Source: a virus. Taken from it: DNA of 64,000 nucleotides. The notes under the pieces were generated by a model. That model was not told the DNA's origin and did no database searches. It saw nothing but the letters and a program-made list of their open reading frames with translations. Numbering within the stretch: the first letter of the stretch is position 1; the number at the start of each line of letters is the position of its first letter. Positions 34,920 to 63,973 of the stretch are shown one piece after another. The translations under genes and the position numbers were made by a program. The stretch is taken from positions 1 to 64,000 of IMG/VR virus record IMGVR_UViG_3300038441_001309. One strand, 5' to 3'.

Positions 34920-34937
34920 GATACTTTAGGTCTGAAA
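34920..34937 (-). promoter_or_regulatory. Candidate early promoter element (copy 1)
   Basis: GATACTTTAGGTCTGAAA on the plus strand; reads as a promoter on the minus strand, with its near end 83 nt upstream of the nvRNAP beta start. Same element as at 39950, 50005, 51947 and 59966. Confidence 0.55.
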
Positions 34938-44935: not shown

Positions 44936-45361
44936 TTACTCGCTTGCTGGCACGGCTTGCTCGGCCAGCGGGATTGGCTTCGGGCGCTCGGCCACGTAGC
45001 TGGACACTTCACGCAGACCCATGGTGAAGATGTCAACACCTTCAACATCCTGGGCGATGTCGCCAGCGATGCTGACGCCGATGCTGGTTTTGTCGATATC
45101 GACCAGAGTGTCGAAACCGACGGCCGTATGCACGGCCAAATTGCCGGCCAGCTCCAGCAGCTTACCAACCTGCTCTTCTGGCAGTTCGTTGGAGGTGGCC
45201 AGTTCGGTCATACCCATGCCCAGGGTCATTACAGCAGCGCCGACGGTAGCCACGACACGGCGATCGTCGCTCATCGGGGCGCCTTCGCTCGACTGGTCTT
45301 CGATGTTCAGCTCGTTGGTCAGGCGATGCAGTGCTGCGTACTTGCTCAGGTTCTTGCTCAT
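44936..45361 (-). CDS. Small helical protein, paralog of next gene (141 aa)
   Basis: 141 residues; AAGGAAG before ATG. N-terminal block LSKYAALHRLTNEL matches LEKYSTLHKYVQRI of 45358-45795. It continues with a Gly/Ala-rich helical domain (TVGAAVMTLGMGMTELAT) and a C-terminal Pro tail. Hydrophobic but too short for a clear membrane segment. Co-translated with its paralog; unknown function, possibly an early protein near the ChmA locus. Confidence 0.65.
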   Translation of the reverse strand: MSKNLSKYAALHRLTNELNIEDQSSEGAPMSDDRRVVATVGAAVMTLGMGMTELATSNELPEEQVGKLLELAGNLAVHTAVGFDTLVDIDKTSIGVSIAGDIAQDVEGVDIFTMGLREVSSYVAERPKPIPLAEQAVPASE

Positions 45362-45795
45362 TGTGCTTCCTTAGGCGCTTCGCCGTGGGTTTTGTTCGCT
45401 TCAGCTACGAGGTGCTCGCTGAGGAACAGCTGTGCTTCGTTCAGCAGGGTGTTGTGGACACCGTCGTTGAACATGGCGGCTTCATTGGCCAGTGCGCCGC
45501 CCATGACGCCGTCGGTAACTTCGGCGAATGGGGCAACCATCTCACTGACTTCTTCAGCCATCTGCTTGACATGGTCAGCGATCATGCTAACCCCGGCATG
45601 GAAGTTCTGCACGGCTTCCGGGTTGTTGGCATTGTACAGGCGCTGGGCGGCGGCCTGGATGGTGTTGCCAACCGCGCACACGACTTGACCTACGCCGTAG
45701 GCCACTGCCGCGGCATCGTCCTGCTCTTCGCACAGGTCATCTTCCGCGATACGCTGCACGTACTTGTGCAGGGTACTGTATTTTTCGAGACTCAT
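45358..45795 (-). CDS. Small helical protein, paralog of previous gene (145 aa)
   Basis: 145 residues; GGAGG before ATG and overlapping the neighbour's start by 4 nt (ATGA). Shares the N-terminal L-x-K-Y-x-x-L-H motif with 44936-45361 and has a similar Gly/Ala-rich helical middle (GVGQVVCAVGNTIQAAAQRL). The two genes thus arose by tandem duplication and diverged. No family recognised. Confidence 0.65.
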   Translation of the reverse strand: MSLEKYSTLHKYVQRIAEDDLCEEQDDAAAVAYGVGQVVCAVGNTIQAAAQRLYNANNPEAVQNFHAGVSMIADHVKQMAEEVSEMVAPFAEVTDGVMGGALANEAAMFNDGVHNTLLNEAQLFLSEHLVAEANKTHGEAPKEAQ

Positions 45796-47943: not shown

Positions 47944-49941
47944 TTACCAGACCGAACGACCGCCGTAAGCAGCGGTGTTGGCCGCGGTGTTGCCACCGCC
48001 GTTGAACACGCCAGCACCAGCAGCACCAGCTGCGAATGCGCCGTAGTCGTAGCCACCCAGGACCTGACCCGAACCCAGACCGTGAACCATGTTCGCTGGG
48101 TTGACAACCAGGCCGCAGGCTTGGCAGGCTTCCGACAGGACGCGCAGGAACACAGGGCCGATGATGTAGCGGCCGGAGTAGCCAGTGATCACCTGACGAC
48201 CTTGCAGCACGTCGTCGATGATGGCCAAACGCTTGGACATACGGATCGGCGCTTGGGCGGTGCCGGCAGCGAACGAATCAGCGTAGTCGATGAGCGCCTG
48301 TGGGTTGGTCTTGCCCAGGACGTTGGCGACGGCCAGCAGGTCCACATCACGAATGTCACGCAGCTCGCCGGTTTCGGAAGCGTAGTAACCGTTGTGGATG
48401 CGGTTGCCGGTATCGATGAACAGCGGGAAGCCACCACCGATGGCTGCAGCTTTCTGGCCGTAGATACCACCGGTCAGGTTGTTGCACGCATCGGTCAGCG
48501 CCTTGATGGCGTTGCCGTTGCCCGAGGCAGCAGCGCGGAAGATGTCCATGATGAAGGCGTCAGGACCGACTTCTGGGATATCGATCGCGAAGATCACACC
48601 GGCGTTCAGGCGGAAGAAATCGCGCATGAAGTTGCCGAAGTTTTCCTTGAAGCTGGCAGCCTTGGTGTCGATACGAGCATTTTCCGGTACGCAGAAGCCC
48701 AGGGCGCCGACGTCACGGAAGTTCAGCTCCTTGCCCTGGTTGGCGAAGCGCGGCAGGTAGGCGTCAGCCCAGCCATTGCGGATCTGCACCATGGTCGCAG
48801 TGACCAGGCCCAGCAGGGACATTTCAACTTCCTGCGCGTCGAAGCCGGAGGCGATCTGGGTGATCACCATCTGGTTGAAGAACGGCTGGTTGTTGGCAGG
48901 GTTCTGCGGGTCAGGCTGCGCGTACACCGGCTCCATGTAACCGGCAACCTTGGTGATGTTGCTGGAGGCGCCGGCGAAGTCGCGGTTCTGCTGGTTGCGG
49001 ACCGAATCCATCTCGACGATAACGTCGTGACGCTGCGGCATGCCGACTTCGTCGACGTAACGCTCGCCGCCGAAGTTCAGACGGCCGACCAGTTGCTCGC
49101 CGCCTTGGTTACGACCGGCCAGGGTGTAGGCTGGTTGGTCATCGAGCTGAACGACGTAGTTCAGGGTGTTGTACAGTGCCAGGGTGGCCTTGTACAGCAG
49201 GTTGTACACGCCGTTGGTTTCGATGTTGTAGGCGGCAGGCAGGATCACGGCACCGGCGTCGATCAGGTTGATCGCACGGCCCTGGCGGGTCTGAGTGACC
49301 AGCTCGGTGGCGCGGGTGATGTAGTCCTGGCTGTTGTAGATGTCGCCGATGACGATCGGGGTCTCGTAGGCACGGCCATCGACCTTGTCGACCTTCGGAG
49401 TCAGACGGATGTCTGCGCCGTCGATCAGGAACGAGTACATGCCGACGTGCTCGGCGTCGGAGGTCTTGACGGTCATCAGCAGAACAACCGACGAAGTCGG
49501 CAGGTTCAGCTGGGCGGCGTCCATGATCTGCACGGCCCATTCGGAAACACCGTCAGCCTTCAGACCGGCCTTCAGTTCTTTCTCGATTGCAGTCTGCAGC
49601 TCTTTGGCACGGACGGAGCCGGCAGAGCGCGACAGAGGACGCAGGCGACGAGCGCCCAGGTCGTTCAGGGTGTTGAACGATTTTGCGTCGCGGCGACCTT
49701 GGGTGTATTGATCAGTGTTGCTCATGGTGATGCTGTCCTTATTAACGTTAATAGATTGATCGACAATAGCTTCGCGTTGCTGGGCTGGCTGTTGTCGTAC
49801 TGCAGGTTCCTGGATATCCACAGCGGGCTTCGCTGCAGACGTCGCAGGCTCCACTTGCGCTTGGGTGTCAAGGCCGGCCCTTTTAAAGGCTTCTGCCATG
49901 ATGTTACCACCCGATGCGCTTTGCTTCTTTTCAACGGACAT
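47944..49941 (-). CDS. chmA: Phage nucleus shell protein ChmA (chimallin), phiKZ gp54 type
   Basis: 665 residues from ATG 49941 (AAGGAG 7 nt upstream), or 593 from an internal ATG at 49725 (AAGGA 10 nt upstream). The body begins SNTDQYTQGRRDAKSFNTLNDLGARRLRPL and has the globular, beta-rich sequence of large phage chimallins (blocks such as RMSKRLAIIDDVLQGRQVITGYSGRYIIGP), with a Gly/Ala-rich C-terminal tail. It is immediately followed by the nvRNAP beta' N gene, as in phiKZ (gp54-gp55). ChmA forms the protein lattice that encloses phage DNA. Codon use is the most biased in the window. A candidate early promoter is 64 nt upstream. The 72-residue N-terminal extension is unusual: an AFKRAGLD helix plus Gln/Pro/Ala-rich linker. 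Confidence 0.85.
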   Translation of the reverse strand: MSVEKKQSASGGNIMAEAFKRAGLDTQAQVEPATSAAKPAVDIQEPAVRQQPAQQREAIVDQSINVNKDSITMSNTDQYTQGRRDAKSFNTLNDLGARRLRPLSRSAGSVRAKELQTAIEKELKAGLKADGVSEWAVQIMDAAQLNLPTSSVVLLMTVKTSDAEHVGMYSFLIDGADIRLTPKVDKVDGRAYETPIVIGDIYNSQDYITRATELVTQTRQGRAINLIDAGAVILPAAYNIETNGVYNLLYKATLALYNTLNYVVQLDDQPAYTLAGRNQGGEQLVGRLNFGGERYVDEVGMPQRHDVIVEMDSVRNQQNRDFAGASSNITKVAGYMEPVYAQPDPQNPANNQPFFNQMVITQIASGFDAQEVEMSLLGLVTATMVQIRNGWADAYLPRFANQGKELNFRDVGALGFCVPENARIDTKAASFKENFGNFMRDFFRLNAGVIFAIDIPEVGPDAFIMDIFRAAASGNGNAIKALTDACNNLTGGIYGQKAAAIGGGFPLFIDTGNRIHNGYYASETGELRDIRDVDLLAVANVLGKTNPQALIDYADSFAAGTAQAPIRMSKRLAIIDDVLQGRQVITGYSGRYIIGPVFLRVLSEACQACGLVVNPANMVHGLGSGQVLGGYDYGAFAAGAAGAGVFNGGGNTAANTAAYGGRSVW

Positions 49942-51973: not shown

Positions 51974-54319
51974 TTAGAGCATGTCTGACAAGAGGGTGGT
52001 GAGGTTGGCGTTGATCATTGGCAAACCCAGAGTTTCAGCACACAGGTAGAAGGGCGATACCGTCGAGTAAGTCTGACGACGTACGTCTGCTACCCGAAGA
52101 ATCTCTTCTGGGATACCGTTCAACTGCACGAGGTCCAGAGGCATCAGGAACGATGTGATCTTGACCTTGGGCTTCATCGGAGCATCTTTGCTCTTTGGTG
52201 CTTCCTCGGGCTGCTCGGTGGTTTCCTCGCTGTCCGCTTCCTTGGCACTGATCTCACCCGGCGCCAACTCATCATCATCGGCACCACCACCATCTCCGTA
52301 CACATACAGCTCATACAAAGCGTTTCTCATGGTGTCGTCTTCAATGCCGTCGACCCACTTCTTGATGGCGGTCTTGTTCGGCAGATCAACAGAGATTTTC
52401 ACAGCACGGTACGGGAGTGATGGCGTGGCCCCGTACTTGTGCGAGAACGCTTTCTCCCACAGAAGGTAGTGGAAGTAGTTTGACGACATTGGCTTTTTGT
52501 AGTCTTCCTTAGGACGCACGTAAGCCGACTTCAGGTACTTGGTGTCACCCTTCTTGATGGACTCAGTCACATTCTTTTCAGTCTGCGCCATAGACTTCAA
52601 GATTGGCATCATCTCAAAGTGACCAGTTGCGTAGATCTGATCCATGACGGATTCGATATACGCGTTGTCCTCTTCGATGATTTCTGGCGGGGAGTTGGAG
52701 TCCTTGTACTGAACGCCTTTGATCTCCAAGTCGGCTTTGGTATAAACGCCACCTTCTTGAGCGATCATCGATGCAACGTAGTGCTTGGCGATGTTGGTAA
52801 GGCCGAATGCCGAGAAGGCGTATTCGTTCTTCATTGCCAGCTTAAGGACGTCTTCACCACGCACGCCCATGCCAGCAGACAGACAGGCGAGGGTGTGGGT
52901 TACAACCTGGCAAGCCAAGAACACAACCGAGTGCCAAGTAGCCTGGCATGGTTTGTTGAACGAGGCTTCGCCGTTCTTCCACTTGACCCACTCGCGCACA
53001 GTGAACAGACAGGAGTCAGTGTCGGAACCTACAACCGAACGGCGACGAATGTCACGAGTACGGCTGATGTTTGGCGGAACGTTGAGCGAAGTCCAAAGGA
53101 TCTCAATCAGGTCATGGTACTTATCCAAGGTAGCCATGATGTTGGCATGGGTATTGCAGACCATGCCCAGCGCTTGCAGGTCCTGCTTATCGATCATATC
53201 CTTGATCGACTTACCGGCAGTTACCTCAGAGCACAGAATCAGAGCCAGTGCCTTGTGGTCACCTTTAACCTTCTTGATACCGGCGATTGGATCAGGGTGA
53301 TCGGCGCCGCCGACTGTTTCCAGTTCGGTCAGGAAACCATTCATGAACGCATCGTTGTACTTACGCAGGTGATACATGTCACCCGTGTAAAGGAACGCAG
53401 CGCGCTCGTACCCGTCCAGGGTCTGAACCAGTTCACCGATCTCTTCCATCGATTCCTCGTGTGACCAATACAGGCTGGTCGAGTAACGAATGGCGGCGAT
53501 GATGTCTTCCTGGGTCGGGATGTACAGGTTGTACTTCTCGATGACCTTCTTCAGTTTGTCGTAGTTGGTATTGCGGCAAATAGAAAGTATCTGCGCAATC
53601 ACAACTTCAGGCGACCAGTAGTGACGGCTACCTGCAACGAAACGTTCAATGGCGGCGTTGCCGTATGACACGGCGGAGCGACAGCCAGATGTCAGGGAGG
53701 AGTGGGCGGATACCAGAACGAACGGAGTAGACCCGATGGTCTGCATGCCCGAGATCCCGTTGTTGAAGATCTTGTGCGAGGTCTGTTCGTTGTTCTTAAT
53801 ACCGGCCTTGTTCTTCTCTTGGGCCTGTTTGAGTTCGTAGTCGGCCAGGGCTGCGTCACGAGCTGGAGTTTGGGGTTGCTCCAGCAGCTCGGCTACCTTA
53901 CCACCATACGAGGAAGCCATCAGCTTAGCTTCGAGAGCCTCAGCCTTAGCACCGTTACGCAGGTCCATGTTGCCGTTGATGTAAACCCCCATCATGGACT
54001 TGCGCACTTCTGGACGCACATAGGTGGTCATGGAAGGGGCGCAGATGAGGTCTTTGGCAACGATGTTCTTGAGGTAGTTGAGATAACCTACCTTACGGAT
54101 GAAGCGGTCACCATTCTTATCCTTGTCGATGATGGTGACGAGCGGGTTCTTGATGGGGAACTTACCATCACGACCAATGGTCTTGCGAATCCACTCAACG
54201 TTGTACTCGTAGTCACGGCCACGCATCTTCGTCAGGAAGAAGGCATTGTCGTGCATGTAGGTGCGGACCACGTTCAGGTCCCGCTGGTACTGCTCGGGTG
54301 ACAGCAGGAAGTGTTCCAT
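51974..54319 (-). CDS. Family B DNA polymerase, C-terminal half (palm motifs B and C)
   Basis: 781 residues; its ATG shares one base with the stop of the preceding gene (TGATG). The conserved polymerase motif B is read as K183-I-F-N-N187-G-I-S-G191, a divergent form of KxxxNSxYG. Motif C is G431-S-D433-T-D435-S (family YGDTDS), with the two catalytic aspartates. No exonuclease motifs are present; these and motif A lie in 20216-21967. An acidic disordered linker sits near residues 655-700 (DDDELAPGEISAKEADSEETTEQPEEAPKSK). Together the two halves can supply all palm aspartates. This half carries fingers, motif C and thumb. The call is strong; how the halves associate is inference. Confidence 0.82.
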   Translation of the reverse strand: MEHFLLSPEQYQRDLNVVRTYMHDNAFFLTKMRGRDYEYNVEWIRKTIGRDGKFPIKNPLVTIIDKDKNGDRFIRKVGYLNYLKNIVAKDLICAPSMTTYVRPEVRKSMMGVYINGNMDLRNGAKAEALEAKLMASSYGGKVAELLEQPQTPARDAALADYELKQAQEKNKAGIKNNEQTSHKIFNNGISGMQTIGSTPFVLVSAHSSLTSGCRSAVSYGNAAIERFVAGSRHYWSPEVVIAQILSICRNTNYDKLKKVIEKYNLYIPTQEDIIAAIRYSTSLYWSHEESMEEIGELVQTLDGYERAAFLYTGDMYHLRKYNDAFMNGFLTELETVGGADHPDPIAGIKKVKGDHKALALILCSEVTAGKSIKDMIDKQDLQALGMVCNTHANIMATLDKYHDLIEILWTSLNVPPNISRTRDIRRRSVVGSDTDSCLFTVREWVKWKNGEASFNKPCQATWHSVVFLACQVVTHTLACLSAGMGVRGEDVLKLAMKNEYAFSAFGLTNIAKHYVASMIAQEGGVYTKADLEIKGVQYKDSNSPPEIIEEDNAYIESVMDQIYATGHFEMMPILKSMAQTEKNVTESIKKGDTKYLKSAYVRPKEDYKKPMSSNYFHYLLWEKAFSHKYGATPSLPYRAVKISVDLPNKTAIKKWVDGIEDDTMRNALYELYVYGDGGGADDDELAPGEISAKEADSEETTEQPEEAPKSKDAPMKPKVKITSFLMPLDLVQLNGIPEEILRVADVRRQTYSTVSPFYLCAETLGLPMINANLTTLLSDML

Positions 54320-54744
54320 CAGGAGACCTGTTCTGCAAGGGATTTAAGATCAATCCCGTAGTGGACTGCTTCGCCAGAGGCTAACAGATTAATGCACAGA
54401 TTGTCGTTGACGCGACTGACCGTGTATACTGCCTTGGTTTTGCTGAACCCTGGACCAAACTCATCGCGTAGAAGGATGTACATCTCGTCGGCGAGGTCTT
54501 CTGCTTCTGCGGCGGTCTCATCACTGAACGACGTAAAGATCTCGCGGGTGCGCTCCAGGTGTTCGTGCATGTTGAGGTAGTGACGGTTCACTGTACCCTT
54601 TGCAATGTACTCAAACTCTTGGGCCAGATACTCGTTGGGGAGAGCATCTGCCAACTCTTTGAAGCCGCGTTCGGTAATCAGGTAATCACGGAAGTCAGCG
54701 ATTACCTCATCGAGCGCCACTTTACCAATGAAATGTGTGTCCAT
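54319..54744 (-). CDS. Hypothetical protein coupled to DNA polymerase half (141 aa)
   Basis: 141 residues, acidic and helical (SDETAAEAEDLADEMYILLRDEF). Ends one base into the polymerase ATG, so they are translated together. RBS weak. Could be a polymerase accessory protein; no family recognised. Confidence 0.6.
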   Translation of the reverse strand: MDTHFIGKVALDEVIADFRDYLITERGFKELADALPNEYLAQEFEYIAKGTVNRHYLNMHEHLERTREIFTSFSDETAAEAEDLADEMYILLRDEFGPGFSKTKAVYTVSRVNDNLCINLLASGEAVHYGIDLKSLAEQVS

Positions 54745-54834: not shown

Positions 54835-55458
54835 TTACATGGTCTTGTAAGTCATCATCTGCATGAACTCGCGCAGGGCGGCGCGATCTACGTCGGAACC
54901 TTTGTACGGGTCAACGTGTTTCAGGTCGGTCAGGGTGAGCGGCAGTTGCGGACAGGCCTCATCGGCGCTTTCCACTTCGAAGTCGAACTTGGCGTAGCCC
55001 AAGGCATTACCGTGACGGTCGAGGAACACGTCGAGTTCCAACTTCTTCTGACCTTCTGGCTGGATGACGTAGCGCATTTTGGTCATCGCTTCGCCGAAGG
55101 TCTGGGAGAGGAAGTCGTACAGCGCTTCACCGCATTCCTTGGTGTCTTCCATCATGCCAGCTTGGCCAGGCACGAACACCTTACGGGTGATCACGCAGGA
55201 CTCGCGGTTGATGCGGCGCACGCGCAGGGTCGGCGGGTTGTCAGCAGCAGACTTGATCAGGATCTTGCACTGGGATTGCTCCTGCAAGAACTTGGTCACG
55301 TACGGCTGCTTGGCCAGTTCAGCCAACTGGTTGGCGTCGGCGATCTTGCCGTAGAAAACGTGTTCGACTTCTTGGGTAGCTTTGCCGGATGCGTCCTCGT
55401 TGTCCAACGATTCGAGCATCATGAGCATTCGCTGATTGAGTTTTACGTCGCGAGCCAT
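54835..55458 (-). CDS. CYTH-domain-like protein (triphosphate tunnel family)
   Basis: ATG 55458 with AGG 8 nt upstream fits better than the GTG at 55467; 207 residues. Features of the CYTH fold (class IV adenylate cyclase / thiamine triphosphatase) appear in order: an E30-V-E32 strand, KILIKS (65-70), LRVRRINRESCVITRK (78-93, the R..R....E...T.K pattern), KMRYVIQ (127-133), KLELDVFLDRHG (139-150) and AKFDFEVE (156-163). The first Lys of ExExK is not evident, so it may not be a standard enzyme. Such a protein might make or break cyclic or linear triphosphates. Its promoter and role in phage are unknown. Confidence 0.6.
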   Translation of the reverse strand: MARDVKLNQRMLMMLESLDNEDASGKATQEVEHVFYGKIADANQLAELAKQPYVTKFLQEQSQCKILIKSAADNPPTLRVRRINRESCVITRKVFVPGQAGMMEDTKECGEALYDFLSQTFGEAMTKMRYVIQPEGQKKLELDVFLDRHGNALGYAKFDFEVESADEACPQLPLTLTDLKHVDPYKGSDVDRAALREFMQMMTYKTM

Positions 55459-55486
55459 GCTGGGCACCTGTTTTGAGACAAAAAAA

Positions 55487-55843
55487 TTAGGGGGCGAGGA
55501 TGTACATATCTTCCAAGATGATCGACCTCACCCTCGCATCACATGCCGAGAGGTAGAGGTCGTTCTTGGTACCCAGCGCAAAATCTACGCTGCGGATCGT
55601 AGGTGTCGCTTCGTCGTCTACTTCAAAGCTAAACGACTCACTGGTTCCACCCACGCTGGACATCACGTGTTGGGTCGACTGTTCGACGCTGTAGGTATCA
55701 TCCTCCAGTTCGATAGAGCCAACCTTAAAGAAGACCCGGTAGTCCCGACCAACCTTGTGAATCTCTTCCAGGCACGGAGTGAGATCCAAAGGTTGGCCGG
55801 GGGCTATCCGCAGTAGCCCGTCTACGCCGGAGTAGGTGGACAT
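55487..55843 (-). CDS. Hypothetical protein (118 aa)
   Basis: 118 residues; AGG 9 nt before ATG. Beta-rich with SVGGTSESFSFEVDDEA, no recognised fold. Lies in a run of small genes, a few bases from its neighbours on each side. Confidence 0.55.
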   Translation of the reverse strand: MSTYSGVDGLLRIAPGQPLDLTPCLEEIHKVGRDYRVFFKVGSIELEDDTYSVEQSTQHVMSSVGGTSESFSFEVDDEATPTIRSVDFALGTKNDLYLSACDARVRSIILEDMYILAP

Positions 55844-55845
55844 GG

Positions 55846-56259
55846 CTACACCTGTCGTGCGGTGACAGAGAAGTCCTTGAGACCGTTACCGGACAGGATG
55901 TTCTGCAACTCCTGCTCGGTAATGCCATCACGAACCACCACGTCGTACACGGTAGACCCGGCCACTTGCACCGAGGTCAACTCGATCAGTGGCTCAGGGA
56001 TTACGAACACCGGGGTGGACTCCGACTGCTTGAGCAAGATGTAGTTGATCTTGTTCTCGTCGGCCGAAGAACCACTGCGGAAGTACGCCTTGGTCTGGGC
56101 CACCAAAGCGCGCAGGTCACCGGCAAACATGCCGGCAACCGCCATTGGAACCTCGCCCTGGAATGTGTAGCCCGTGAACGTGGTACGTCCTTGGATTTGC
56201 ATTCTGGCAACGAGGTTGATCTTGGTATTAGGCGCCAAGCTGCGCAATGATACCGCCAT
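55846..56259 (-). CDS. Hypothetical beta-rich protein (137 aa)
   Basis: ATG 56259 has AGAGG 9 nt upstream and is preferred over the TTG at 56265; 137 residues. Beta-rich N-terminus (VSLRSLAPNTKINLVARMQIQGRTTFTGYTFQ) followed by an alternating hydrophobic segment. No family recognised. Confidence 0.55.
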   Translation of the reverse strand: MAVSLRSLAPNTKINLVARMQIQGRTTFTGYTFQGEVPMAVAGMFAGDLRALVAQTKAYFRSGSSADENKINYILLKQSESTPVFVIPEPLIELTSVQVAGSTVYDVVVRDGITEQELQNILSGNGLKDFSVTARQV

Positions 56260-56704
56260 TGTCAAGATCCTCTTGAGAGAAGTGTAGCATCACCTTTGTG
56301 GTGCCACTGATTACGGAGAAGCCGATAACGTCCTCCCAGTACACGTTGGCTACCCAAGTCATGCTTTCACGGAGGTCGTCCATCAACTCATTCATGAGCA
56401 AGGTGCCAATGGCCAAACAGTTAGCGTCGTAGAAACGCTCCATGTGGTAGTCATTGAGGCAGATACCCACCGCCTGGGAGACCTTGTGTAGCCATGCGCT
56501 TTGCGGGGCGTCCATAGGAACACCCATTCGAAAACGCTTACGACGCAGCATGTCATAGATGCCGGCCAGCACCTCTGACTCGACAATTACAACAGCTGCG
56601 GTCTGGTCAACCTCGATTTCAAGGGGGCACTCGTGTTGCCATGCCTTCTTGTTCGGGTCTCTGGCTGATTGCTCATCAGCTTCTGGGGGGTTGGATTCTA
56701 TCAT
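56228..56704 (-). CDS. Hypothetical small protein (158 aa), member 1 of small-gene array
   Basis: ATG 56704 (MIESNPPEADE) gives 158 residues. A beta start (CPLEIEVDQTAAVVIVESEVLA) precedes a helical domain and an aromatic middle (WVANVYWEDVIGFSVISG). RBS weak; overlaps both neighbours by about 30 nt. Unknown, but see the array at 56228-59937. Confidence 0.55.
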   Translation of the reverse strand: MIESNPPEADEQSARDPNKKAWQHECPLEIEVDQTAAVVIVESEVLAGIYDMLRRKRFRMGVPMDAPQSAWLHKVSQAVGICLNDYHMERFYDANCLAIGTLLMNELMDDLRESMTWVANVYWEDVIGFSVISGTTKVMLHFSQEDLDNGGIIAQLGA

Positions 56705-57104
56705 GATGTTTCGCCATATCCATTTCGTTGGACACTTCAATGACCAGTCGCTTGTTACTGAAGCTTATGTCTGTCGCGTAGAACAATCCATTCGCGAGCA
56801 GCTGCGGCTTGAACAGATTCAGATTATGGTGCACATCAAACCAAAATTGATCATTGGGCTCTAGCGTGCAGCTATGCCCGATGGCCTTGTCCATGTCCTC
56901 GAATTCCTCTTCCTCGTCATGATTAGGCGAGTTGGGATCGATGTAACCAAAGAACCCACAGGCTGCACTGATTGCCAGCTCGTCGGGTCCTCCGTATTCG
57001 GAAGTCTCGGAGTCCAGTCCCCAAGACTCCTCAGGCAAATCTCCCACGTAGTCATTAACCTCCTCAGTGAGGTCGATGACCAATACTCTCTTTTTACGCA
57101 TCAT
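56676..57104 (-). CDS. Hypothetical acidic protein (142 aa), member 2 of small-gene array
   Basis: 142 residues starting MMRKKRVLVIDLTEEV, an N-terminal beta strand then V-I-D-L-x-E motif, followed by an acidic linker (NHDEEEEFEDMD). Its ATG overlaps the stop of the next upstream gene (ATGA). The V/I-x-I-D-L-x-E start recurs in several genes of the array. Confidence 0.55.
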   Translation of the reverse strand: MMRKKRVLVIDLTEEVNDYVGDLPEESWGLDSETSEYGGPDELAISAACGFFGYIDPNSPNHDEEEEFEDMDKAIGHSCTLEPNDQFWFDVHHNLNLFKPQLLANGLFYATDISFSNKRLVIEVSNEMDMAKHHDRIQPPRS

Positions 57105-57544
57105 TTGCTTATCTCAAATTGAAAGCTCCCCGGAGTCAGCGTGAACTCAATCTTGGCCGGTGCCTGCATCGACCAGTCGGGGAACTCTTGATCAATCGGA
57201 TCGGCGACCCATTCATAGACCGTCATCAGGTCATCAATGATTCGCTCGGTGTCAAACTTACCGCCTGTCATGTACACAAAACGTGACAGGATGCGTTCGT
57301 AGTTTTGCAGGTACTCAACTGCACCAGTGCCGGGGAATTGAATCTTCCACGGCACCGAGTAGTCGCTACGAGCACCTGTATGGATGTACTGCGTGTTGAA
57401 GCGTTCCATTGCAATTGCCTCTAAGACAAGTTCAAGGATCGCCGTGCAGTAACCATCGATGTTGCCAATCTCCAATCCCAGATCGAAGAAATGATCTTCT
57501 CTGGATAATCGCAGGATCATGATGGTCTTCCAATACGGGTTCAT
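57101..57544 (-). CDS. Hypothetical protein (147 aa), member 3 of small-gene array
   Basis: 147 residues. Starts in the TAATG overlap with the upstream stop. After a ten-residue leader come MILRLSREDHFFDLGLEIG, then helices (YCTAILELVLEAIAM), and a C-terminal beta strand (KIEFTLTPGSFQFEIS). Overall shape like its neighbours: beta start, helical core, beta end. Confidence 0.55.
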   Translation of the reverse strand: MNPYWKTIMILRLSREDHFFDLGLEIGNIDGYCTAILELVLEAIAMERFNTQYIHTGARSDYSVPWKIQFPGTGAVEYLQNYERILSRFVYMTGGKFDTERIIDDLMTVYEWVADPIDQEFPDWSMQAPAKIEFTLTPGSFQFEISK

Positions 57545-58119
57545 TAGGTCAGTAGCCTTTGGTTAGGTCCAGGCCTCACCCAAAGAGTGAATGACAACCT
57601 GTTGGCCGGGTCCTTCCTTTCACGGATCACTGGGAACGCCTCTGCCATTCTCTGCTCGTGGGGGGTACCCATCTGCCGAGGATCTGGCAAGTAGTTCTCA
57701 GGTGTTCCGATCTGGATAGGTGTGAATGTATACAAGTGGGGCAGACCCAGGGCTACTTTAAGTTGCGGATAGAAGAACAGGATCGTGTTGACGAAGTTGA
57801 AAGCCAACTCAGTCACTACGGTCATGGTCTCCTGATAGCCCCATCGGGATTCCTCTTGCTGGAACATCGGATAAACCGATTGAATGTTCTCAGCCATGGA
57901 GTTGCGTACTTGTACCACCCGGTGACGATCAGCCAAGCTCAGCGAAACAGGCGACATCATAAATGCACACGCACACACAAGCGCCATGTGCTTGTAGTGT
58001 GTGCATGCCATTGTGGTCATTTCGGTGCTGAATTTGTTGCCTGTTACCGCTGACAGCAGTAGGCCGATCTCTCCAATGGATTCTTCTAGATCAATGGATA
58101 CTCGGTAATGTCCAAACAT
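57544..58119 (-). CDS. Hypothetical protein (191 aa), member 4 of small-gene array
   Basis: 191 residues; MFGHYRVSIDLEESIGEIGLLL start, then a hydrophobic run (HMALVCACAFMMSPVSLSLAD) and a C-terminal RLSFTLWVRPGP strand. Overlaps the next upstream gene by 34 nt. The N-terminal S-I-D-L-E-E-S-I-G-E motif matches those of 58086 (W-D-L-S-E-M-I-G-E) and 58532 (I-N-L-G-E-I-I-G). Confidence 0.55.
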   Translation of the reverse strand: MFGHYRVSIDLEESIGEIGLLLSAVTGNKFSTEMTTMACTHYKHMALVCACAFMMSPVSLSLADRHRVVQVRNSMAENIQSVYPMFQQEESRWGYQETMTVVTELAFNFVNTILFFYPQLKVALGLPHLYTFTPIQIGTPENYLPDPRQMGTPHEQRMAEAFPVIRERKDPANRLSFTLWVRPGPNQRLLT

Positions 58120-58523
58120 GCGTCAGGGTTCTCATAATAGTACCCGCCATGGATAGCCACTCTCAGCATCATGGGGGTGAGTTGTGTAACGTCATCGATA
58201 ACGTACCAATCGAAATCACGGGCAGTGAAGTCGGTGAACCACGTCATCTCTTTATACCAGCGTCGAGCCTGGGACTTGAAGAACAATCCCAAGAACTCGT
58301 AGTTGCGACCGATGTTGCTCTCGACAAAGTCAGCCAGCGCGTCTGTGCCAGCTGCTTGGTCACGCAATGCAATCGCAGCAAGGTCAGCCAGCAGATGTTT
58401 CCACTCTACCGGCGTGTCCCTGATTATTTCATCGTGCCCATCCACGAAAGGGGAGTGTTGCTTGAACGCGAAGTCCGCCTCCCCAATCATTTCAGACAGG
58501 TCCCAGTGTACGACTGCTTTCAT
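58086..58523 (-). CDS. Hypothetical protein (145 aa), member 5 of small-gene array
   Basis: 145 residues; TAGGAG before ATG. N-terminus MKAVVHWDLSEMIGEADF, a helical middle (LLADLAAIALRDQAAG), and C-terminal LRVAIHGGYYYENPDACLDI. Shares the beta-D-L-x-E-x-I-G-E start with its neighbours. Unknown. Confidence 0.6.
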   Translation of the reverse strand: MKAVVHWDLSEMIGEADFAFKQHSPFVDGHDEIIRDTPVEWKHLLADLAAIALRDQAAGTDALADFVESNIGRNYEFLGLFFKSQARRWYKEMTWFTDFTARDFDWYVIDDVTQLTPMMLRVAIHGGYYYENPDACLDITEYPLI

Positions 58524-58531
58524 CGCATCTC

Positions 58532-59020
58532 CTAGAACCCTCGACCCTCGGGCTCGTCAGTCCCGTCGTAGTCAAGAGGTTCCTCCAGTTGTTGTGTGGC
58601 CAGAGACCAGTGGTACCAGATGGTCAAGGTGTGGTAACCATTGACCATTGGGGTTGGTACTTGGTTCGCGTCGAAGGAACGACCAGGGTTTTGTTGCCTG
58701 ATCATTCCTTCCATGCGGGCGATGTCCGCTGCCAATGCATTCCAGAAGTGTTCCAGGAATATCGTGGCAGATGGTTGCAGGTTAATGGGGAAGAACCGAG
58801 CGGCTTCCGAGATCGACAGTCCTCCAGGTATACCCAGGAGGCAATGGATCATGCCGCGACACAAGTAGCCCGACGTATCGCCAGTGAACTGGGAAGCGAT
58901 GGTAGCAAACCGATCGTCTCCCAGGTCATAGTCGAAGGCACCTATGATCTCTCCAAGATTGATGACGATCTTGAAGTCTGGGTTGGGCTCTATTGGCCCT
59001 GGATGGAATGACTGCTTCAT
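58532..59020 (-). CDS. Hypothetical protein (162 aa), member 6 of small-gene array
   Basis: 162 residues. PIEPNPDFKIVINLGEIIGAFDYDLGDD at the start (I-V-I-N-L-G-E-I-I-G), helical middle, C-terminal HTLTIWYHWSLATQQLEEPL. Starts 3 nt after the stop of the upstream gene, RBS weak, so reinitiation is likely. Confidence 0.6.
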   Translation of the reverse strand: MKQSFHPGPIEPNPDFKIVINLGEIIGAFDYDLGDDRFATIASQFTGDTSGYLCRGMIHCLLGIPGGLSISEAARFFPINLQPSATIFLEHFWNALAADIARMEGMIRQQNPGRSFDANQVPTPMVNGYHTLTIWYHWSLATQQLEEPLDYDGTDEPEGRGF

Positions 59021-59023
59021 GCG

Positions 59024-59599
59024 TTATCCGATCAGGTGGTACACAAAGTCATGCATGCTGCCCCCGGAAGCTACAACGGAGGCTTCAACTACATGGCGCT
59101 GGCAACAGAAGTTGAAGATCATGTGTTTGGTGTGCGGTGTGACATCCACCGTCCACAAATCACCACGGTTGTAGAACGAAGACACGAACTCATGAAGCTC
59201 CGTGCCGATGTCGTAATAGATATCGTCCAGCAGATCGTCCAACGCTTCCAGGTACCGGCGCTCTGGACTGTCCTTTGGATAGATGTCCCCATCTTCGCCA
59301 CGGTCAGGAATGGTCGGTGGCTCGTGGGACTCTTGCACTGCGCGGACGAAGAACTTGATCTGATCATCGTCCCCGCCATCATTGGCCACCTTGAGCAGAA
59401 TGGCCAACATGTTTTGTACGCGGTCGTTGTTGGTGCCCAGAATCTTCTCACGCAGAATACCTTTGGCATCCGTGTGAACAAACTCAAGCCAGTGCTTTGG
59501 CTCCAGCAGATTCAAACCCAGTGATTCGGTGAAGCCACCCTGAGGTATCAGCTTAGGGAGTTCAGCCAGTTGTTCGCCCAGGTCAAATACGAATTTCAT
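59024..59599 (-). CDS. Hypothetical protein (191 aa), member 7 of small-gene array
   Basis: ATG 59599 has AAGGAG 8 nt upstream and is chosen over 59680; 191 residues starting MKFVFDLGEQLAELPKL. The V-F-D-L-G-E start again resembles its neighbours. Middle acidic (GDIYPKDSPERRYLEALDDLLDDIYYDIG), C-terminal HMIFNFCCQRHVVEASVV. Confidence 0.6.
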   Translation of the reverse strand: MKFVFDLGEQLAELPKLIPQGGFTESLGLNLLEPKHWLEFVHTDAKGILREKILGTNNDRVQNMLAILLKVANDGGDDDQIKFFVRAVQESHEPPTIPDRGEDGDIYPKDSPERRYLEALDDLLDDIYYDIGTELHEFVSSFYNRGDLWTVDVTPHTKHMIFNFCCQRHVVEASVVASGGSMHDFVYHLIG

Positions 59600-59937
59600 C
59601 CAGCACGCTCCTTGAGAAAACTGATCGAGCAATAAGCCCGACCTTGGACGCACACCAGCAGTTCCTCTTCCCCTGTCCATCCATTTTCATAAAGCATTTC
59701 CGTTAGCGTCTTGTAGATTTCCTTCATATGGAAATCACGAGTCACCTGTGCTTCAAAGGGAAGATCGGGCGCTGTCCACCAAGGTGGGGTGAGGACAGGT
59801 AGCCCGAGATCCACGAGGAGCCAAGCGAGATACTCTTCCATGGCGATGTCACAGTTGACATGGAGTAGGTCCTGCTCATACTCAGATACGTGGAACAAGA
59901 ACGTGGTATGGTCTTGGGGGATTGGTGTTAACTTCAT
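59596..59937 (-). CDS. Hypothetical protein (113 aa), member 8, first gene of the array
   Basis: 113 residues, promoter-proximal, 29 nt downstream of an early-promoter element. MKLTPIPQDHTTFLFHVSEYEQDLLHVN, then a helical middle and C-terminal YCSISFLKERAG. Overlaps the next gene's start by 4 nt (ATGA). Same general beta-helix-beta shape as the others but without the D-L-x-E motif. Confidence 0.6.
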   Translation of the reverse strand: MKLTPIPQDHTTFLFHVSEYEQDLLHVNCDIAMEEYLAWLLVDLGLPVLTPPWWTAPDLPFEAQVTRDFHMKEIYKTLTEMLYENGWTGEEELLVCVQGRAYCSISFLKERAG

Positions 59938-59965: not shown

Positions 59966-59983
59966 GATAATTTAGGTTTCAAA
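59966..59983 (-). promoter_or_regulatory. Candidate early promoter element (copy 5)
   Basis: GATAATTTAGGTTTCAAA, identical to the copy at 39950, here 29 nt upstream of the first gene of the small-gene array. Confidence 0.6.
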
Positions 59984-60280
59984 AAGGCTCGTATCGCACC
60001 TATCCAGAAAGGGCCTAGAATGCTCTATGTTGCCTTATATGTCCTAAACCATAGCGTGATACCGTTCTACTATAAATCCTTCTCATAGCGCTTTACAGAA
60101 GCCTTCTAGCAGCATAAGCCCTCCGCCCCTTCCGAGGGCGGAGGGTATGCAGTCCACACACAACGACTTCCTTCCGACAAGCTGTTCACAGCCACTCCCC
60201 CAAAGAGTGATGGGCGCTCGTCCAGGTAGACCTTAAACCGCACAGGAGCAAAGCGGCAGGAGTCTTACCAATAGATCCGG
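59984..60280. other. Gene-free region with a terminator and possible structured RNA
   Basis: No credible coding frame. Contents: a terminator at 60119-60145, then three short inverted repeats: 60181-60192 (GCTG-ttca-CAGC), 60193-60209 (CACTC-ccccaaa-GAGTG) and 60238-60256 (CCGC-n11-GCGG). These might be part of a small structured RNA read on the minus strand from the next gene, or chance. Confidence 0.35.
60119..60145 (-). terminator. Hairpin terminator
   Basis: CCCTCCGCCC-cttccga-GGGCGGAGGG, 10-bp stem; GCATAAG to the left and GTATGCAGTCC to the right. Ends the unit coming from 60281-60496. Confidence 0.85.
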
Positions 60281-60496
60281 TTAACCCGTTGTATTTGAAG
60301 AAGGTTTATTCACCACGTCATGAAGTTCTGGGTTGTACACTTCATAGACCATTCGGTTGTGCCAGGGGAGCCCAGCACACTGGGTACAGATGAGGGGAAT
60401 GGGGCGCAGGTCTACATCCATGTCTTCGCCGTGGGGATAGCGAACGTCCATGAGGTCGACGTGGTTACAGCTGACGCAACGAAATACTCCAGGCAT
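60281..60496 (-). CDS. Small zinc-ribbon protein (71 aa)
   Basis: The frame is open to 60697, but that would run through a terminator; GGAG 6 nt before ATG 60496 gives MPGVFRCVSCNHVDL..., 71 residues. Two CxxC pairs (C7-V-S-C10 and C38-T-Q-C41) form a zinc-ribbon knuckle. Such mini-proteins bind nucleic acid or proteins. ATGs at 60508 and 60514 are alternatives. Function unknown. Confidence 0.65.
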   Translation of the reverse strand: MPGVFRCVSCNHVDLMDVRYPHGEDMDVDLRPIPLICTQCAGLPWHNRMVYEVYNPELHDVVNKPSSNTTG

Positions 60497-63151: not shown

Positions 63152-63973
63152 ATGAACGCCATTCAGCATACACTTAACGAACTGAAGCATCTGATTCCGA
63201 TGCCCATTCTTCGCGAAGCTTTTCAGAATGACCTGATCCGCCGAGAGACGTGGGGACGCCGTAACGCTCCCGTGGTCAGCATTGATCACGTGATCCGCGA
63301 CAAGGTGATTGAAGGCCGTGTGTTGCCCGGCATCAACCTCATCTCGGGTCAGCGTGAGCTGGTCTCCTTGGTTGGCCTGGTGCAAGAGCAACAAGACGAC
63401 TGGAGCCTGGTAATCACCATTCCAAAGAACCGTACCAACAACCGGTCGATCACTGCAGTCTATGCAATGGTAACCGGTACGCCGACAGGTGCCTTGGGCG
63501 GTTCGGTCTCGATGCAGTTTGGTGCAGCGAGTAGCCTGGTTGACTCCATGCGTGCCGTGAAGCAATCGCGTGAAGCCATGCCGCTGATGTCTGACAGCAA
63601 TCTTCAGATCATCGGCGACAACATGATCCTCATACGATCGCCTCTGCGCCTGGCAGGTACCATGTATCTGGATTGCCAGCTGGAGAACGACAGCACCCTG
63701 TCCCACATTCCACCTGCAGCCTGGCGCCATTTCAAGAAGTTGTGCGAGTTCGCCGTTAAAGCGTACATCTACAACAACATTGTCATCCCCATGGATGAGG
63801 CGCAGATCGCAGGCGGTATGTCCATTGGCCGCTTCAAGGAGATCGTTGACAGCTATTCCGATGCCAACGAACTCTACGAAGAGCAGATGAAGAAGTGGGA
63901 GAAGGTAGCTATCCTCTCCGATCCGCTTTCGCATTTGGATCACATTCAGTCCATTGTGGGTGGACTGCTTTGA
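63152..63973 (+). CDS. Hypothetical, probable virion protein (273 aa)
   Basis: 273 residues; only a weak GAG precedes the ATG. Soluble and mixed, with Arg-rich start (LIRRETWGRRNAP) and a helical C-terminus (DSYSDANELYEEQMKKWEKVAIL). Divergent from PhuZ, with 82 bases between starts. No family recognised; plus-strand genes elsewhere in the window are of virion or RNAP type. Confidence 0.6.
   Translation: MNAIQHTLNELKHLIPMPILREAFQNDLIRRETWGRRNAPVVSIDHVIRDKVIEGRVLPGINLISGQRELVSLVGLVQEQQDDWSLVITIPKNRTNNRSITAVYAMVTGTPTGALGGSVSMQFGAASSLVDSMRAVKQSREAMPLMSDSNLQIIGDNMILIRSPLRLAGTMYLDCQLENDSTLSHIPPAAWRHFKKLCEFAVKAYIYNNIVIPMDEAQIAGGMSIGRFKEIVDSYSDANELYEEQMKKWEKVAILSDPLSHLDHIQSIVGGLL

Follow-up and report, generated by a model that had tools for sequence, protein, structure and literature searches.

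The chimallivirus core genome was reported to comprise 72 genes, as defined by PSI-BLAST (PMC10299810), and the antisense screen carried out with phiKZ covered core and annotated genes (PMC12571901). In Table 1 of that screen PHIKZ042, PHIKZ049 and PHIKZ050 are among the hits and PHIKZ043-048 are absent, with knockdown of PHIKZ042 being strongly deleterious and knockdown of PHIKZ049 and PHIKZ050 lowering plaque formation (PMC12571901). PHIKZ049 encodes SH3DP, which was suggested to be a polymerase subunit (PMC7824862), PHIKZ050 encodes the polymerase, and the interval preceding both is made up in phiKZ of PHIKZ043-048, for which no functional description was found in the literature searched. 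Here, an array of eight small genes is described, located at positions 56228-59937 of a window that consists of bases 1-64000 of the 140,672-base virus record IMGVR_UViG_3300038441_001309 (record label G000). Almost every nucleus-forming jumbo phage sampled possesses a locus of this kind, of which the array would be the local form and PHIKZ043-048 the form in phiKZ. It is proposed, with a probability of roughly 40%, that the array encodes an accessory module which acts early, is hetero-oligomeric and is tied to SH3DP and the family B DNA polymerase (PolB), its eight members having diverged as paralogues that keep one small and mostly acidic fold.

Judged by the genes flanking the array, the source phage belongs to the nucleus-forming jumbo phages of the Chimalliviridae type. 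It encodes chimallin (47944-49941; PF25677, 138.9 bits against a Pfam cut-off of 27), the tubulin PhuZ (phrog_4733, 1e-34 in PHROGs), which is not universal in Chimalliviridae, and multisubunit RNA polymerase genes (phrog_2987, 1e-130; phrog_3295, 3e-194), and an SH3DP gene lies close to its divergent family B DNA polymerase gene, a combination used to recognise Chimalliviridae. The polymerase is 75-66% identical to that of three relatives from IMG/VR whose locus is intact (L006, L012 and L008, referred to as the close relatives), and at most 34% identical to that of isolated phages.

The array itself consists of eight minus-strand open reading frames (ORFs) of 113-191 codons lying end to end with gaps of +8 to -34 nt, which confirms the array of the initial annotation, and its genes are numbered o1-o8 from the promoter end, whereby members 2, 4, 5, 6 and 7 of that annotation correspond to o7, o5, o4, o3 and o2 (Table 1). 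From o1 to o8 the junctions measure -4, +3, +8, -34, -1, -4 and about -29 nt, the last being counted from the o8 start, ATG 56704, with the ORF itself opening farther upstream at a TTG. The end of o8 overlaps SH3DP by about 26 to 38 nt, and the run continues via 55487-55843, 54835-55467 and 54319-54744 to the polymerase with no gap above 90 nt. Seven of the eight array proteins are acidic, with isoelectric points (pI) of 4.4-4.8 compared to a median of 5.95 (Fisher p=0.0016) and charges of -10 to -18. For all eight genes a 1:1 syntenic orthologue was identified in each of the close relatives, with order and number unchanged and identities of 31-82%; the copy number, whose variation between related phages had been proposed as a check, is consequently eight in all four phages. 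Pairwise ratios of nonsynonymous to synonymous substitution rates (dN/dS) amount to about 0.07-0.30 where computable (single value 0.02; o8 0.07-0.11), compared to 0.13-0.28 for SH3DP and 0.27-0.36 for PhuZ, whereby these gene-wide values are insensitive to local positive selection and are unreliable in some pairs due to synonymous saturation. As orthologues are present in all three relatives and dN/dS is low, o1-o8 are genuine genes under purifying selection, with a copy number that is stable at the range of close relatives. When the 140-kb record was searched with the o3 profile, no further copy came to light.

Upstream of o1 lies the element CCTAAATTATC, a single exact copy of which is also found upstream of o1 in L006, L012 and L008, and variants of which precede the genes for chimallin (50015) and the RNA polymerase beta-type subunit (34930) as well as other genes. 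With at most one mismatch allowed, the 140 kb contain six sites, each of them on the minus strand 14-73 nt before a gene, as compared to two in one shuffled set. As the early promoters of jumbo phages were described as AT-rich motifs of about 10 nt (PMC7598289), CCTAAATTATC was assigned as a putative early promoter, and the earlier assumption of early expression under one promoter element gains support from its position upstream of o1 and from it being of a class common to chimallin and the RNA polymerase subunit. The array would be an early-expressed run that is co-transcribed from one promoter. On its own account, the element CCTRAATTATC, with TGA following about 4 nt on, was noted on the minus strand of the record at 34930, 39960, 50015, 59976, 72649, 89560 and 93627, a set which could define an early regulon of the source phage. 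An SspB-like protein encoded at 89057-89524 of the record (phrog_8945, host-takeover category) is likewise preceded by the early-type element in exact form.

The N-terminal motif on which the initial annotation was built, a beta strand followed by [D/N]-L-x-E, was given there with exact strings for o7, o5, o4, o3 and o2, and it is retained in the orthologues of the three close relatives. When a position-specific scoring matrix (PSSM) was derived with one orthologue group left out at a time, o3, o2, o7 and o5 scored above the maximum of 8.9 reached among the record's 78 other small genes (scores in Table 1), and o8 equalled this maximum, but the motif fails in its L008 orthologue. The gene 54319-54744, which directly precedes the polymerase, scored 17.2 in its L008 orthologue and only -0.5 in the window copy. 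An unsupervised comparison of N-terminal 15-mers gave permutation values of p=2e-4 for nine proteins and p<5e-5 for five core proteins, the latter value being weakened by the fact that these five were picked once the motif was known. As a group, the array thus carries the motif beyond chance, strongly in o2, o3, o5 and o7, at the borderline in o4 and weakly in o1, o6 and o8.

In 11 of 12 sampled chimalliviruses, namely in PA1C, SL2/phiKZ, PhiPA3, Ea35-70, Huxley, FBKp24, PCH45, Goslar, FLC6, FLC9 and Moabite, the stretch between the PhuZ/PHIKZ042 region and the SH3DP-DNA polymerase genes is likewise occupied by a run of small ORFs that are acidic on average, about 5-10 per phage and often overlapping; the phages were picked from polymerase matches for diversity, not randomly, and the counts denote small ORFs at that position, not proven family members. 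Many of the encoded proteins have starts resembling those of o1-o8, examples being FLC6 gp5 (ERIIVDLRHALREF), Ea35-70 (NVLLIDLKPIVYQW), PCH45 (NVVVIDLRRLI) and Moabite (VHIVDISNLLSLF). A strand and then D/N/P within 20 residues was found in 30 of 78 interval proteins and in 15 of 108 small genes from elsewhere in these phages (p=1e-4, a value to be taken as indicative for a pattern selected post hoc), and the interval proteins are more acidic than the control small genes (median pI 5.0 versus 6.0, p=1e-5). With the window-derived motif PSSM the distant chimalliviruses showed a modest shift (p=8e-4), which leaves a wider family unproven by sequence alone. No significant tblastn match of the array proteins to the sampled chimallivirus loci was obtained, and DNA and protein searches with o3, o5 and o8 against 50,697 phage records returned no match in isolated phages. 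Taken together, the locus is conserved in position and general character and not in sequence, with the fold probably being conserved. A match in L019, a Pseudoxanthomonas metagenome-assembled genome, was rejected as chance, since its neighbouring ORFs resemble those of an ordinary bacterial chromosome; a divergent DNA polymerase was not found in L019 either, which is weak evidence as the same search matched nothing anywhere.

Structural models were obtained with AlphaFold for o3 and o4 from four-sequence alignments; they are of medium confidence, which varied across the five models per protein. Both models possess the same order of elements, beta-4alpha-beta-beta with a long last helix, o3 having an additional short helix, and the C-terminal segments of the other members, judged by eye, likewise look beta-rich. 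The predicted shared fold would begin with a beta strand, followed by [D/N]-L-x-E as a helix cap and by about four helices, of which the last is long, and would close with a beta hairpin at the C-terminus. Folds differing from gene to gene, which the initial annotation had regarded as speaking against a family, were not seen between o3 and o4, the two genes this comparison covers. Searching BFVD with the o4 model gave a best E value of 0.006, and all named organisms in ranks 1-37 are jumbo phages of the chimallivirus group, including RSL2, Noxifer, Ea35-70, SL2, Psa21, PhiPA3, 201phi2-1, Goslar and FBKp24. Matches common to o3 and o4 are A0A0A8J8D6, A0A1Y0SUM2, A0A8E5K6U0 and PhiPA3 gp044, the last of which belongs to the PHIKZ047 family and sits in the matching PhuZ-SH3DP interval of PhiPA3. 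One SL2 match, with 178 aa, has the length of the PHIKZ047 homologue of SL2; except for PhiPA3 gp044, it was the organism and the protein length that tied BFVD matches to interval genes. Against the PDB, Foldseek gave no match with E <1 for o4, and the best fold matches of both models (Z about 4, with the trigger factor N-terminal domain appearing for both at Z 3.4-4.1) were taken as uninformative.

Several results weigh against reading the array as one family and one module. No significant homologous pair within the array was found by BLASTP, phmmer or HHalign, the last run with four-sequence alignments; the best HHalign probability was about 3% for a pair inside the array and 22% for o3 versus 54319-54744, whereby several of the top array alignments, though weak, are in register at the N-terminal motif. 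Furthermore, o4 stays below the control maximum in leave-one-out motif scoring, o1, o6 and o8 match the motif poorly, with o1 and o6 lacking an outstanding PSSM score, the fold was predicted for two of the eight members with a predicted local distance difference test (pLDDT) value of 71-73, and the BFVD matches are weak one by one (E >0.005, template modelling score about 0.3-0.5). The interval of pVa-21 holds fewer small ORFs and large gaps, a predicted terminator separates SH3DP from the polymerase in Moabite and Goslar, which makes SH3DP and not the polymerase the constant partner of the array, and the tie to SH3DP and polymerase is one of gene neighbourhood, while adjacent genes need not share a function. 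It is unlikely, even so, that the array assembles unrelated small genes which merely share a start of strand and capped helix as is common in small alpha/beta proteins: the missing pairwise homology, and isolated chance pairs elsewhere in the genome that outscore the array pairs in the 15-mer comparison, are what such an origin would predict, but the collective motif statistics, the identical topology of both models and the shared BFVD neighbours run counter to it. The amplified family of the initial annotation consequently holds as far as the shared motif, the equal topology of the o3 and o4 models and their common structural neighbours are concerned, and finds no backing in pairwise or profile homology.

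With regard to function, the array proteins gave no match in Pfam, PHROGs and NCBIfam, PADLOC, which covers defence systems and not counter-defence factors, returned nothing meaningful, and PDB sequence profiles and Rfam yielded nothing usable. An early replication role is favoured since the constant neighbour SH3DP is the suggested polymerase subunit and is needed for normal plaques of phiKZ, and the distinct retained paralogues, fixed order and close coupling argue for subunits of one assembly over interchangeable anti-host factors. The initially annotated alternative, early takeover or counter-defence factors, here framed such that each paralogue binds another host target and the divergence between genera reflects an arms race, is somewhat less likely: an early-type promoter, small, soluble and mostly acidic proteins, and sequences of o3, o5 and o8 that are undetectable in the phage records although the locus exists there would all suit it, yet no positive evidence for host interaction was obtained, copy number and order are constant in the four relatives, dN/dS is comparable to that of SH3DP and PhuZ, and the array is placed before the replication genes in the sampled phages, with linkage to SH3DP and polymerase across the family. 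Cargo-specific adaptors or chaperones of phage-nucleus transport, handing proteins like the polymerase over to the import machinery, would accord with a locus confined to chimalliviruses, as far as sampled, with the promoter class being the same as that of chimallin and with a review listing several cargo-specific import contributors (Imp4, Imp5) besides PicA/Imp1 and Imp3 (PMC13282480); as PHIKZ043-048 are not named as import factors in the literature searched, this function is considered quite improbable. Least credible are acidic DNA-mimic or restriction-blocking proteins, for which the low pI and negative charge of seven members would speak, but whose charge density is moderate, with o5 being near neutral and no known family being matched, and which would add little to a phage genome that is expected to be nuclease-shielded anyway. 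The proposed module and its alternatives are not mutually exclusive in every respect, so that their probabilities need not sum to 1.

In the proposed accessory module, a single promoter would drive early expression of the closely packed and probably translationally coupled genes o1-o8, with the run continuing into SH3DP. Each copy would most likely act as a subunit or adaptor of its own within a hetero-oligomeric assembly that works early and serves SH3DP and the divergent polymerase, for example by loading the polymerase, supporting its processivity or recruiting it into the phage nucleus as this forms; both complex formation and the link to replication are inferred. In this sense the array looks like overlooked, fast-diverging early phage machinery and not like a one-off set of anti-host weapons. 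A farther-reaching idea, that a multi-copy superfamily without recognised solved relative occupies one fixed locus in probably most chimalliviruses and forms a hidden hetero-oligomeric core module that takes part in replicating the genome early, or in transferring it, inside the phage nucleus, is speculative and rather unlikely to hold in full.

Table 1. Positions and properties of the array genes, their promoter element and the genes following them. Identities refer to the orthologues in L012/L006/L008.
Feature	Position	Strand	Length (aa)	pI	Properties	Identity (%)	Motif score
Early-type promoter element CCTAAATTATC	59966-59976	-			39 nt upstream of the o1 start codon		
o1	59596-59937	-	113	4.5	strand then HVSE (weak motif); C-terminal end beta-rich	58/51/37	
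o2	59024-59599	-	191	4.8	N-terminus KFVFDLGEQLAEL	54/53/33	16.1
o3	58532-59020	-	162	4.6	KIVINLGEIIG; pLDDT 71	55/63/51	18.8
o4	58086-58523	-	145	4.5	VVHWDLSEMIGE; pLDDT 73	48/49/31	6.4
o5	57544-58119	-	191	6.6	VSIDLEESIGE	58/59/40	9.7
o6	57101-57544	-	147	4.5	strand ILRLSRE, atypical motif	50/50/34	
o7	56676-57104	-	142	4.4	VLVIDLTEEVNDY	73/70/32	13.1
o8	56228-56704	-	158	4.5	N-terminal extension, then strand VVIVESEVL	82/81/42	8.9
SH3DP (PHIKZ049 counterpart)	55846-56265	-			SH3-fold, phage DNA polymerase-associated; PF20287, 31.4 bits (cut-off 25); phrog_3235; overlaps the o8 end		
Possible ninth member	54319-54744	-	141		relatives carry the motif (L008 IAIINLEEMIADF); stop/start overlap to the polymerase gene		
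Divergent family B DNA polymerase	51974-54319	-			PF20286, 691 bits; end of the same gene run		

Around the array, further observations were made. The possible ninth member (9559-9993 in L012) shares about 22% identity between L006 and L012, compared to 70-98% for its neighbours, which suggests a swap for a divergent paralogue. Upstream of the array, a zinc-ribbon ORF (CVSC...CTQC; 71 aa, 60281-60496, minus strand) has identities of 63-70% in the three relatives and of 32% with Goslar_00200, which is likewise placed after PhuZ; between this ORF and the array lie CACTCTTTGGGGGAGTG (60193-60209, less exact in L008) and a GC-rich terminator-like hairpin (60119-60145), both of which are kept in the four relatives. 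A PHIKZ042 homologue adjoins PhuZ at 63152-63973 on the plus strand, its identity of 79-93% in close relatives being above the conservation of PhuZ, and it was detected in all 11 other loci searched. Among the interval proteins of other chimalliviruses, a subfamily with C-terminal DWR/DYR was recognised by eye (L025 8635-9138, L026 8672-9163, L031 5661-6140, L030 6670-7245), seemingly spanning several genera (FBKp24, PCH45, Moabite, FLC6). Elsewhere in the record, two adjacent overlapping small genes (44936-45361 and 45358-45795) encode paralogue-like N-termini (KYAALHRL and KYSTLHKY), and four proteins (96294-96851, 101023-101574, 112470-113207 and 113255-113776) carry similar C-terminal ends near the stop (LSGLNYPV, LNGFTPA, LNGFDAA and LGGLNYPL), perhaps a tag on structural proteins.

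A family as divergent as this one would escape sequence-based core-genome analysis. If the array is a conserved, sequence-hypervariable module, early genes are missing from the parts list of the phage nucleus and its replication, and the module would be directly testable in phiKZ or Goslar. Among known systems, PHIKZ043-048 and their counterparts come closest, resembling o1-o8 in position, size, overlaps, acidity and the many starts with a strand and D/N/P, with PhiPA3 gp044 of the PHIKZ047 family being a weak structural neighbour of both o3 and o4 in BFVD; they differ in lacking significant sequence similarity to o1-o8, and no function for them was found in the literature searched. SH3DP (PF20287, PHIKZ049), being the next gene after the array in the sampled phages, belongs to a recognised family of different fold and is not a member of the array. 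With the small early paralogue arrays of phages in general, the locus shares the form of a compact early-type cluster of small divergent genes, and it differs from them in its positional conservation across genera, its stable 1:1 orthology among the close relatives and its placement before the replication genes.

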